Shown here: piece by piece, positions 19,679 to 43,521 of the stretch | Layout of the letters: every line of letters starts with the position of its first letter | Position numbering within the stretch: position 1 is the stretch's first letter | Assembly: GCF_029543085.1 (NCBI RefSeq) | Contig: NZ_CP119967.1 | Span: 1,266,501-1,330,500, forward strand | DNA: 64,000 bases | Source: Pseudomonas sp. A34-9 | GTDB taxonomy: Bacteria > Pseudomonadota > Gammaproteobacteria > Pseudomonadales > Pseudomonadaceae | Direction: 5' to 3' | Translations under genes and position numbers: made by a program | The notes under the pieces: generated by a model | Seen by the model: only the letters and a program-made list of their open reading frames with translations | Databases searched by the model: none | What the model was told of the DNA's origin: nothing

Positions 19679-19743
19679 CGCAGCCGAGCTAACGCTCATC
19701 CTGTTGAGTGGTGAGGAGCAGAAGCGATCTGCTCTTGCTCTTT

Positions 19744-20135
19744 TGTGGTAGCGAGCCTGCTCGCGAAGGCGGCCTGACAGCCGACCTGTTGCTTGCAGAT
19801 GTACGCAATCCAATTGTAGGAGTGAGCCTGCTCGCGAAGGCGGCCTGACAGTCGAGCTGTTGCTTGCAGATGTACGCAATCCAATTGTAGGAGCGAGCCT
19901 GCTCGCGAAGGCGGCCTGACAGCCGACCTGTTGCTTGCAGATGTACGCCATCCAATTGTAGGAGTGAGCCTGCTCGCGATGACGCCCTGACAGCCACCCA
20001 ATCTCTGCTTGAATGCACGCGCCGAAACTGTGGGAGCTGGCTTGCCAGCGATGACGGCCTGACAGCCGACCAAGCCTTGAACTGAAAATGCTCGATTCAA
20101 ATGTGGGAGCCAGCCTGCTGGCGAAGACGATCTGA
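19744..20135 (+). repeat. Head-to-tail array of six REP units
   Basis: Six units in the same orientation start at about 19751, 19822, 19893, 19964, 20036 and 20109, so the periods are 71, 71, 71, 72 and 73 bp. Each holds a REP core (G-GAGCC-GCTCGCGA) and the tag GGCCTGACAG. The first three spacers (TTGCTTGCAGATGTACGC...) are almost identical, while the last two have diverged in both REP core and spacer. This differs from the inverted REP pairs elsewhere in the window and points to stepwise tandem duplication. Confidence 0.9.
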
Positions 20136-20231
20136 AAGGCGAAGTTGTTTAACTGTGTTACGAAAATTCAGAACCTTCCCACATGTTTTTCAGGTTGTCC
20201 GTCGGACGTGCGATCTCTAGCCTTAGGTTGT

Positions 20232-20316
20232 CGCTGCAAAAATCAGCGACCGGGTTTCGCAGCCCGGTTAAACTTCAGACGCACAGCGTCCACTATCCGA
20301 AACGGGCGCTTTTTTA
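20232..20316 (+). promoter_or_regulatory. Structured leader with candidate transcription attenuator
   Basis: Consecutive hairpins: GTCGCTG / CAGCGAC, then CCGGG / CCCGG, then a stem AGCGTCC / GGGCGCT (20285-20291 / 20304-20310, one G-U pair) followed at once by a run of six T. The last is a good intrinsic terminator, yet it stands about 145 bp upstream of the DUF6124 start rather than after a gene, which suggests premature termination of a leader transcript or the 3' end of a small RNA. Confidence 0.5.
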
Positions 20317-20327
20317 TGCCTGTGTCA

Positions 20328-20406
20328 TGGCGGTTGTGCGCGGGATACCTTCGGGTATGCCGGGTGCCTGAAGTCCCGGTCTGCGAACCTGCGTACAGCT
20401 GCCACC
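20328..20406 (+). ncRNA. C4 antisense RNA-like element
   Basis: A 14-bp closing stem (20328-20341 with 20391-20404, three G-U pairs, no mismatch) encloses two hairpins, ATACC-TTCG-GGTAT (core) and CCGGG/CCCGG. The fold, the CTTCGGG loop and the 3' segment CTGCGAACCTGCGTACAG match, from memory, the C4 antisense RNA of phages P1/P7. The 3' arm AGCTGCCACC (20397-20406) can pair completely with GGTGGCGGCT (20429-20438; one G-U), which lies 10 bases upstream of the AGGAG of the DUF6124 gene. That is the expected geometry for control of a downstream gene. Confidence 0.6.
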
Positions 20407-20461
20407 TAACATTCGTTTCGCAGCGAACGGTGGCGGCTCCATTACTTCAGGAGATTTCGCC

Positions 20462-20719
20462 ATGTTCAAACCCACGCCAAACCCGCCCAAACCCGTCAAT
20501 AATCCCAGCACAATCTTCACCGTCCTTCCCGAGGTCGATTCCGAAACATTACTCGCTCACGCCTGTGAAACGCTGGCCTCAGCCAACATCATGGCCACGG
20601 AACTGGCGTTCACCCTGAGTGGCCCGACGTGTAATCATCTTCTGGGGATTCAGCAGATGATCTCCCTCGCAGAGCTGTCGGTGAACCGCGTCCTTGATCA
20701 AGTCGATCCGCAAACCTGA
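20462..20719 (+). CDS. DUF6124-type small protein
   Basis: 85 residues starting MFKPTPNPPKP. I recognise the pattern (proline-rich start, then FTVLPEVDSETLLAHACETLASANIMA and LLGIQQMISLAELSVNRVLD) as DUF6124, small Pseudomonas proteins of unknown function that often follow this structured leader. It is shorter than most I remember, with the middle linker missing. The ATG follows CAGGAG at 20448-20453. It is soluble and lacks a signal. A strong terminator follows 8 bp after the stop, so it is a single-gene unit. Confidence 0.75.
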   Translation: MFKPTPNPPKPVNNPSTIFTVLPEVDSETLLAHACETLASANIMATELAFTLSGPTCNHLLGIQQMISLAELSVNRVLDQVDPQT

Positions 20720-20726
20720 CGCCCAA

Positions 20727-20767
20727 CAAAAAGCCCGCTGAACCCCAAGGGTTCAGCGGGCTTTTTG
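20727..20767. terminator. Rho-independent terminator, bidirectional
   Basis: An 18-19 bp stem CAAAAAGCCCGCTGAACC / GGTTCAGCGGGCTTTTTG with a 3-5 base loop and T-runs on both strands. It serves both the DUF6124 gene and the convergent DUF4197 gene. Confidence 0.92.
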
Positions 20768-20779
20768 TCGTTCAGAATA

Positions 20780-21469
20780 TTACAACGTCCCAAACACCTT
20801 CTTCGCCAGACTGGTCGCCGCAGCAGCCGGGTTCTGGCGGATGGTTTCTTCCTGTTTGCCGATCATTTCGAACAAGCCATTGAGCGCTTGCTCGGTCACG
20901 TAGTTTTCAACGTTGGCGCTCTTGGCATCAACGACGCCAAACGCTGCAGCCTGGCCGGCGAACGAGTTGTACTTCTGCGCTACGCCAACCTTGTCGGTCG
21001 CCTGTTTGACGATCGGCAGGAACTTGGCGCGGATCTGTTCGCGGCTGGATTTGTCGAGGTATTGCGTGGCCGAGTCCTTGCCGCCGCTGAGGATGCCTTT
21101 GGCGTCTGCCACGCTCATTTTCTTCACGGCGTCGACGAGGATTGGCTGGGCCTGAGTCACCGCGGATTCCGCTGCCTTGTTCATGGCGGTTTCCAGTTCT
21201 TCAACCTGAGCGCCCATGCCGAAGGCTTTCATCTTGCTCGCGGCTTTGCCGAGTTTGCCCGGCAGCTCGATCTTCACGTCCGGGTTGTTGCTGAAGCCGC
21301 CGGGGGTGCCCAGTTGCTTGACGGCGATTTGCGCGCCTTGGGTCAGGGCGTCCTTGAGGCCGCCGGTGGCGTCTTTTTGCGACAGGTCACTGAGCGACAG
21401 CGCCAGCGCGCTGGCGGAGATCATCAGGCCTGCGCACAGGCCGGCGAAGCGAAGGGTAGGGCGGAGCAT
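20780..21469 (-). CDS. DUF4197 domain protein, exported
   Basis: 229 residues. A Sec signal peptide (MLRPTLRFAGLCAGLMISAS, predicted cut near ALA) precedes a mostly helical domain with GGLKDALTQGAQIAVKQLG and a YNSFAGQAAAFG / NYVTEQALNGLFEMIG segment typical of DUF4197. The function of the family is not known to me. The ATG at 21469 was chosen for its signal peptide and AAGGAACC upstream. It is 21 bp downstream of the YbaY-type gene, so the two are probably one operon. Confidence 0.82.
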   Translation of the reverse strand: MLRPTLRFAGLCAGLMISASALALSLSDLSQKDATGGLKDALTQGAQIAVKQLGTPGGFSNNPDVKIELPGKLGKAASKMKAFGMGAQVEELETAMNKAAESAVTQAQPILVDAVKKMSVADAKGILSGGKDSATQYLDKSSREQIRAKFLPIVKQATDKVGVAQKYNSFAGQAAAFGVVDAKSANVENYVTEQALNGLFEMIGKQEETIRQNPAAAATSLAKKVFGTL

Positions 21470-43381: not shown

Positions 43382-43417
43382 ATGCGCCGCTTTCCGGGGA
43401 TACCCCGAAAAGCTTAA

Positions 43418-43521
43418 ATCCACACACGTGTCGACACGATGACCTGGGTGCTTTTGGCTTTATGCCACTGGTTGGTCATTGGGATACGTGGAGGCCAAAC
43501 CCGACTTATTAAGGAACTATC
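43418..43521 (+). promoter_or_regulatory. rpsB mRNA leader, candidate S2 autoregulatory structure
   Basis: The leader contains a 12-base palindrome CGTGTCGACACG, then a long hairpin closed by ATGACC / GGTCAT with an inner TGGC / GCCA stem, then GGGATACGTGGAGGCC just before the ribosome binding site. Gamma-proteobacterial rpsB leaders carry conserved structures for repression by S2; this one is a reasonable candidate by position and conserved-looking sequence. Confidence 0.45.

Follow-up and report, generated by a model that had tools for sequence, protein, structure and literature searches.

A phage P1-type C4 antisense cassette that probably controls DUF6124 genes in many copies on Pseudomonas chromosomes

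The locus studied here raises the question of what an antisense RNA of phage immunity does on a bacterial chromosome, where it lies directly ahead of a small DUF6124 gene. C4 RNA is known from the phages P1 and P7, the C4 RNA of P1 is described as covering the ribosome-binding site by base pairing and so blocking translation, and 21 C4-like sRNAs are reported in Acinetobacter baumannii (all in the available excerpts of PMC5320573). We analysed a 64,000-nt stretch of the chromosome of Pseudomonas sp. A34-9, hereafter called the window. The five neighbouring genes checked by Pfam encode an RND pump, its HlyD-type partner, DUF4197, YscW and an acyltransferase with a GPAT_C domain; among these five there is no phage gene, as an earlier note on this DNA had said of the surroundings. 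Our reading, which we consider very likely to be correct, is that at this locus a host chromosome bears all the parts of a P1-like C4 antisense cassette, that the C4 RNA represses the translation of DUF6124, and that the cassette has been amplified into a set of mostly private switches.

The earlier note had proposed a C4-like RNA at positions 20328–20461, with a covariance-model search as the check. The search bore this out, since the full-length match to the Rfam C4 model scored clearly above the gathering cut-off (Table 1), and a scan of the whole window returned identical scores for C4 and c4-a1b1 (78.0 and 57.7 bits). The folding energy of the 134-nt stretch is −59.5 kcal/mol, compared with −47.5 ± 3.8 for shuffled sequences (z −3.2; 2 of 200 shuffles equal or better). 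A stem enclosing two hairpins was found as described, with a closing stem of 17 bp in both the Rfam alignment and the fold instead of the 14 bp claimed. The linker a′ (CTGCGAA) is complementary to TTCGCAG both downstream (a2) and upstream (a1) of C4, and b′, in the loop of the second hairpin, is complementary to b2 at the ribosome-binding site. The c4-a1b1 element is a copy of the C4 targets on the upstream side. The terminator-like hairpin that follows it is absent from the output of a consensus terminator scanner, whose limit of 8 is exceeded by its loop. The isrK model (RF01394) gave a sub-threshold match at 20230–20315, which spans the a1b1 element and this hairpin (45.4 bits, and 35.1 bits in P1; cut-off 50). 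A sigma-70 scan of positions 20080–20800 found no promoter-like site. By eye, two types of conserved block can be seen further upstream, namely CCTTGCGCC-TTGCCTAC-CAGAATCCGCCGGCTTGTGCG ahead of some copies, and CAGAACCTTCCCACA-CAGGTTGTCCGTCGGACGT, which contains an inverted repeat and occurs in this copy as well (window 20108–20222); both are possible promoters or regulator sites.

Table 1. Features of the C4 cassette in the window, and cargo of C4 copies elsewhere in the genome
Feature	Position	Strand	Remarks
c4-a1b1 leader element, two hairpins (RF03163)	20217–20270	+	full-length Rfam match, 57.7 bits, cut-off 46.7
a1 TTCGCAG	20256–20262	+	7-bp complement of C4 linker a′; also annotated in P1
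b1 ACTTCAG	20272–20278	+	7-bp complement to part of C4 loop b′; read from sequence
Terminator-like hairpin AGCGTCC...GGGCGCT with T-run	20285–20315	+	between a1b1 and C4; read from sequence
C4 antisense RNA (RF01695)	20323–20409	+	full-length Rfam match, 78.0 bits, gathering cut-off 45
Mature C4 RNA (putative)	about 20329–20406	+	ends by analogy with P1
b′ CCTGAAGT	20367–20374	+	apical loop of second C4 hairpin
a′ CTGCGAA	20381–20387	+	linker from second hairpin to closing stem
3′ arm	20397–20406	+	3′ strand of closing stem (part) and tail; the arm of the earlier note
a2 TTCGCAG	20417–20423	+	downstream target of a′; flanks TTCG and CGAA
Third complementarity GGTGGCGGCT	20429–20438	+	pairs with the C4 3′ arm; the target of the earlier note
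b2 ACTTCAGG	20444–20451	+	target of b′; overlaps Shine-Dalgarno AGGAG (20449–20453)
DUF6124 gene, 85 aa	20462–20719	+	PF19619, 91.1 bits
C4 copies c04, c13			cargo DUF3077
C4 copy c09	G000:C1:6303337–6303423		cargo Bro-N, phage antirepressor type
C4 copies c05, c32, c40, c41			cargo a family without name, about 100 aa
C4 copy c01			cargo a 52-aa ORF; DUF3077 gene further downstream

The record of phage P1 (AF234172) annotates a1, b1, C4, a2, b2 and icd; the a′ linker of this phage reads CTGTCAA and its b′ loop TCACTAAC. The window locus resembles P1 in the fold, in the order a1-b1-C4-a2-b2-gene, in the placement of a′ in the linker and of b′ in the second loop, and in the position of b2 just ahead of the gene. 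The two differ in spacing, with a2 and b2 beginning 1 and 30 nt after the end of the model match in P1 and 8 and 35 nt after it in the window, i.e., 7 and 5 nt further downstream. They also differ in that the window cassette is chromosomal, carries DUF6124 in place of icd-ant and belongs to a genome with 41 C4 copies. As its downstream gene is DUF6124, neither an antirepressor gene nor icd, the locus is not a C4-icd-ant operon of the P1 type. The 10-bp pairing of the C4 3′ arm with a site ahead of DUF6124, on which the earlier note had built its comparison, is present with one G-U pair; however, it is not the P1 kind of target, since in P1 it is the linker a′ and the loop b′ of the second hairpin that bind the annotated targets. 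In P1 itself, we read an imperfect counterpart of the arm pairing in the same interval.

The single domesticated switch suggested earlier had to be given up, because the genome contains 41 C4 matches, each above the Rfam cut-off. For the a1b1 element, 37 matches were found at E ≤ 0.001, with 21 of them above the cut-off. A DUF6124 domain is encoded within 900 nt downstream of 33 of the 41 C4 copies, and C4 lies upstream of 33 of the 38 DUF6124 genes in the genome; other cargo is listed in Table 1. The C4 fold alignment, made from 30 of the 41 own copies and P1, has 95.7% of its cells paired and two-sided changes in 18 of 27 pairs (0 of 500 shuffles). By our own criterion, a terminator-like site precedes C4 in 5 of the 41 copies, the window copy included, and one of the five (c19) has a poor T-run; a terminator or attenuator as a part of every copy was thereby refuted. 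Five DUF6124 genes of the genome are without C4, and the leaders of two of them were tested for a partner in trans, with none clear. In copy c31 (G000:C1:882374 region), the DUF6124 frame is apparently shifted inside the gene (82-aa ORF, domain match further on).

Comparison of the 41 copies revealed that the recognition sequences change together with their targets. Of the 7 nt of the linker a′, all form standard pairs with the a2 of the same copy in 36 copies and 6 do so in the other 5; for a1 of the same copy these numbers are 37 and 4. Among the copies there are 23 distinct linkers (CTACCAA is common to 7 copies), and one position of the linker-target pair is occupied by GC 16, AT 14, CG 6 and TA 5 times. 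The mean number of linker pairs was 6.88 on the own target versus 5.42 ± 0.10 in 300 shuffles, and the loop pairing run had a median of 10 bp on the own leader versus 6 on others. A 7/7 linker combined with a loop run of at least 8 was found in 28 of 41 own combinations and in 35 of 1640 mismatched ones, while 13 of the 41 copies lacked this strict two-part match on their own gene. Against the downstream leader, the loop b′ scored 21.7 on its own and 14.6 on others (z 16.4) and the linker a′ 18.0 and 13.0 (z 13.7), with 0 of 10000 permutations as high in either case; for the upstream 150 nt, the preference for the own copy gave z 9.4 for the loop and 12.2 for the linker. All permutation tests reported here, also those on other sets of cassettes, leave relatedness between copies uncorrected. 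The stem closing the a1b1 element likewise prefers its own copy (z 6.7; 0 of 5000 permutations). No other target matches the loop as well as its own in 18 of the 41 copies; for the linker this holds in 4, because linkers recur between copies. When the comparison is restricted to 23 copies whose linkers all differ, the linker's own target ranks first alone in 7 of them and first or joint first in 22. These matches suggest that each C4 acts chiefly on the gene of its own copy, most copies having matched a′/a and b′/b pairs, and insulation between copies is incomplete. The DUF6124 gene also stands as the likely C4 target proposed by the earlier note; a2 and b2 both lie before it and both co-vary strongly.

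The same pattern was found outside this genome. In 64 cassettes from named Pseudomonas (taken from 65 C4 matches in 64 of 80 loci, one being dropped as a duplicate or too short), z was 16.8 for the loop and 13.7 for the linker; in 31 cassettes from other Pseudomonas genomes it was 14.2 and 8.3, and in 21 cassettes from other genera 10.6 and 9.8, with 0 of 5000 permutations as high in each case. Since matched a′ and b′ recur in other genera, they look like a general property of C4, and what is peculiar to Pseudomonas is the number of C4 copies and their cargo.

The 3′ arm behaved differently from the linker and the loop. Its score at the window copy is the highest of the 41 (26), yet over all copies it reached 17.1 on the own downstream leader and 16.8 on those of other copies (z 1.0; 1774 of 10000 permutations as high), with z −1.6 for the upstream 150 nt, and the own target was its sole best in 0 of 41 copies. 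In the other sets, the arm signal was z 2.6 in the 64 named-Pseudomonas cassettes, 2.9 in the 31 from other Pseudomonas and 4.4 in the 21 from other genera (38, 11 and 0 of 5000 permutations as high, respectively). The arm-target pairing was thus rejected as the specificity element: it is present, yet own and other leaders score about alike in this genome. Covariation of arm and target, as envisaged in the earlier note, is not copy-specific here and is weak but real elsewhere, so that the arm may add to the pairing without being the main discriminator.

Across 149 Pseudomonas genomes, C4 was found above the cut-off in 137 and DUF6124 in 117 (138 and 118 at E ≤ 0.001). Copy numbers of the two correlate with a Spearman coefficient of 0.87, where at least 27 C4 copies were taken as 27 and at least 38 DUF6124 copies as 38. 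At E ≤ 0.001, no genome of the 149 has DUF6124 without C4, 20 have C4 alone and 11 have neither. A class-wide search found C4 in 18 of 274 sampled genomes, or 17 of 273 excluding the present one, with 1–6 matches found in each of the 17; its filters were stricter and at most 15 candidates were scored per genome, which makes copy numbers and misses lower bounds. No C4 match was found in 16 of the 80 named DUF6124 loci. By eye, an a1b1-like hairpin stands right before DUF6124 in 11 of these 16 (L135, L138, L144, L148, L149, L150, L162, L182, L184, L186 and L205), which may be either targets without a switch or genes under a C4 located elsewhere.

The gene named as DUF6124 by the earlier note was confirmed as such by its Pfam match. 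At the same site, the DUF6124 protein has about 128 aa in the relatives L132, L140 and L142 and 85 aa in L128, L129 and L131, and by this comparison the window gene is an N-terminally shortened allele. The last three relatives, whose DUF6124 genes adjoin the same DUF4197 gene, gave dN/dS values of 0.26 (L128), 0.20 (L129) and 0.14 (L131) against the window gene; the value obtained with L132 (0.08) was discarded, since the gene there is longer and the alignment of the first codons joins non-homologous positions. Six paralogue pairs of equal length, of eight tried, had dN/dS values of 0.03–0.18. DUF6124 is therefore under purifying selection. Two DUF6124 proteins had no match in PHROGs and none among the PADLOC defence models, and in profile comparison DUF6124 was not similar to Icd or to the Bro-N set. 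Its profile link to DUF3077 is weak (E 2.6e-4, probability 43) but gains support from one protein that matches both domains.

The order of the elements suggests how the cassette may work. One transcript would run from the a1b1 leader through the terminator, where there is one, and C4 to the a2b2 leader and DUF6124. C4 would be cut from this transcript or would act within it, its linker a′ pairing with a2 while b′, in the loop of the second hairpin, covers the Shine-Dalgarno sequence by pairing with b2, so that DUF6124 would stay untranslated in the resting state; it is the P1-type anatomy that leads us to read the C4 as blocking translation over the ribosome-binding site. The upstream a1b1 element, holding the same two targets, could bind C4 and relieve the repression, as is reported for IsrK of the Gifsy-1 prophage. 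There, as given in the accessible portion of PMC4825925, a short terminated leader RNA lies upstream of a stable RNA that is released by processing of the read-through transcript (IsrK/STnc1160/orf45-anrP), and IsrK switches on translation of the read-through mRNA. By analogy, STnc1160 would correspond to C4 and IsrK to a1b1. In the same portion, a co-expression result speaks against IsrK simply inactivating the STnc1160 RNA, and on this report a1b1 is a candidate reliever here and no more. Gifsy-1 differs in that it is a prophage locus acting on an antiterminator, whereas the terminator-like site of the present family is confined to 5 of 41 copies. The CI RNA of phage P4 with seqA/seqC, likened by its description in that portion of PMC4825925, is also a processed antisense RNA between two complementary targets; unlike the mechanism proposed here, it acts on transcription termination. 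In A. baumannii AB5075, according to the excerpted text of PMC5320573, Group 1 comprises many C4-like RNAs in one genome (21) with a variable a′ loop, which are expressed and apparently processed at the P1-type site. That text assigns no cognate downstream genes to them, whereas here co-varying targets tie most C4s to a gene. Through amplification, many Pseudomonas genomes have come to carry the cassette in dozens of copies.

Co-variation would look alike for a trans-acting RNA and for pairing inside one mRNA. The C4 fold and the a2/b2 pairing could thus form a translational attenuator within a single mRNA, with no free RNA; C4 has its targets beside it on the same strand, no more than about 50 nt away, and cis pairing, too, would give a C4 that fits mainly its own downstream gene. 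However, in the P1 annotation C4 is an RNA of its own whose target is the icd/ant mRNA, the 21 C4-like RNAs of A. baumannii are expressed and the full-length ones apparently processed (excerpts of PMC5320573), and an upstream a1b1 copy would be without an obvious role in a pure cis switch. We regard such a cis-acting leader as possible, if rather unlikely. A small protein behind an antisense RNA, in many copies with distinct recognition sequences, also calls to mind a type I toxin-antitoxin-like unit, in which DUF6124 would be harmful when made and C4 would be the RNA antitoxin, and the Icd protein behind the C4 of P1 is indeed annotated as an inhibitor of cell division. Given that the two DUF6124 proteins had no match in the defence library and that no profile link to Icd was found, we judge this improbable.

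The phage origin of the RNA family raises the matter of whether the cassettes are decaying relics of prophages, i.e., leftovers of phage immunity without present function. C4 is a family known from phages, a Bro-N gene is the cargo of 1 of the 41 own copies, Bro-N-type genes lie behind high-scoring C4s in 7 of the 31 cassettes from other Pseudomonas genomes, AntA, pRha and Bro-N genes follow C4 in other genera, and a DUF3077 cargo protein matches the phage family phrog_36471 (E 1.8e-10). Decay is nevertheless very hard to reconcile with complementarity kept through two-sided changes in dozens of copies, with dN/dS values that are not neutral in the DUF6124 copies tested, and with DUF6124 above the cut-off in most of the 149 Pseudomonas genomes; moreover, a single DUF6124 query matched 1 of 50,697 phage records and 0 of 72,556 plasmids, and a single DUF3077 query matched none of the phage records. 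Another way to account for the numbers is a selfish or mobile unit of about 700 bp that spreads for its own sake. Many copies are homologous over an interval of about −200 to +490 relative to the start of C4, and the site in the window carries DNA similar to the cassette near DUF4197 in 3 of 25 Pseudomonas loci (the window, L107 and L105). This idea earns little credence from us, because copies c15, c27 and c34 share more than the unit (about −720 to +500), neighbouring pairs suggest local duplication, and the DUF6124 protein is under strong purifying selection.

Within the preferred reading of amplified C4 switches, the divergence of genes and switches can be compared. Among 39 own genes, 17 pairs are more than 86% identical in DNA, and 16 of the 17 differ in their recognition sequences while 1 has the same. 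Three such pairs lie about 1–3 kb apart with different a′/b′: the genes are 97.8% identical and the C4 cores 76% in c03/c26, 96.9% and 73% in c12/c28, and 92.5% and 63% in c06/c16. Gene conversion or recombination between copies is a simple reading of this mismatch. We tentatively entertain a further idea, doubtful as it is, of a genomic library of dozens of antisense-switched small proteins, in which copies of the same sequence would silence each other and recognition sequences would be driven apart for this reason, amounting to an intragenomic incompatibility system. If true, it would also tell resident from incoming cassettes. The best natural pair with regard to mutual silencing is c28/c29 (G000:C1:1892989 and 3527213), with identical C4 at distant places and genes that are 90.5% identical.

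C4, a1b1 and a multi-copy set of C4 are already known. Of the undescribed module that the earlier note had envisaged, the link to DUF6124 stands, whereas the regulator belongs to a known Rfam family. DUF6124 was not found in the open-licence PMC papers, nor were its link to C4, the genus-wide amplification and the copy-specific matches; they may have been published elsewhere. DUF6124, with DUF3077 as a second cargo, gains a testable mode of control, and the results suggest that an RNA known from phage immunity entered the chromosome and gained many copies throughout the genus. The cassettes (41, 64, 31 and 21) provide more than 100 natural matched RNA-target pairs for measuring the rules of antisense specificity. 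For C4-like RNAs elsewhere, e.g., in A. baumannii, they suggest the adjacent gene as the first candidate target.

The chromosomal site itself varies. Rfam searches of 20 of the other 24 DUF4197 loci found C4 in L107 and a1b1 alone in L105, and 13 more loci have the pump end and DUF4197 in the same stretch with no similarity to the cassette. The cassette thus sits at this site in some members of the genus. Of the 80 named loci, which were chosen by DUF6124 similarity, 14 include DUF4197 or the pump end in the retrieved stretch. In L102, L103, L104 and L106, another gene, which by its motif we take to be Fic-like, adjoins DUF4197 at the cassette site. No tRNA was found in the 64-kb window. Directly upstream of the cassette, at window 19743–20142, there are short GAGCCTGCTCGCGAAGGC-like repeats with a spacing of about 71 bp, presumably of the REP type, and an ordinary t44 RNA was found at window 43403–43500 (69.9 bits, Rfam).
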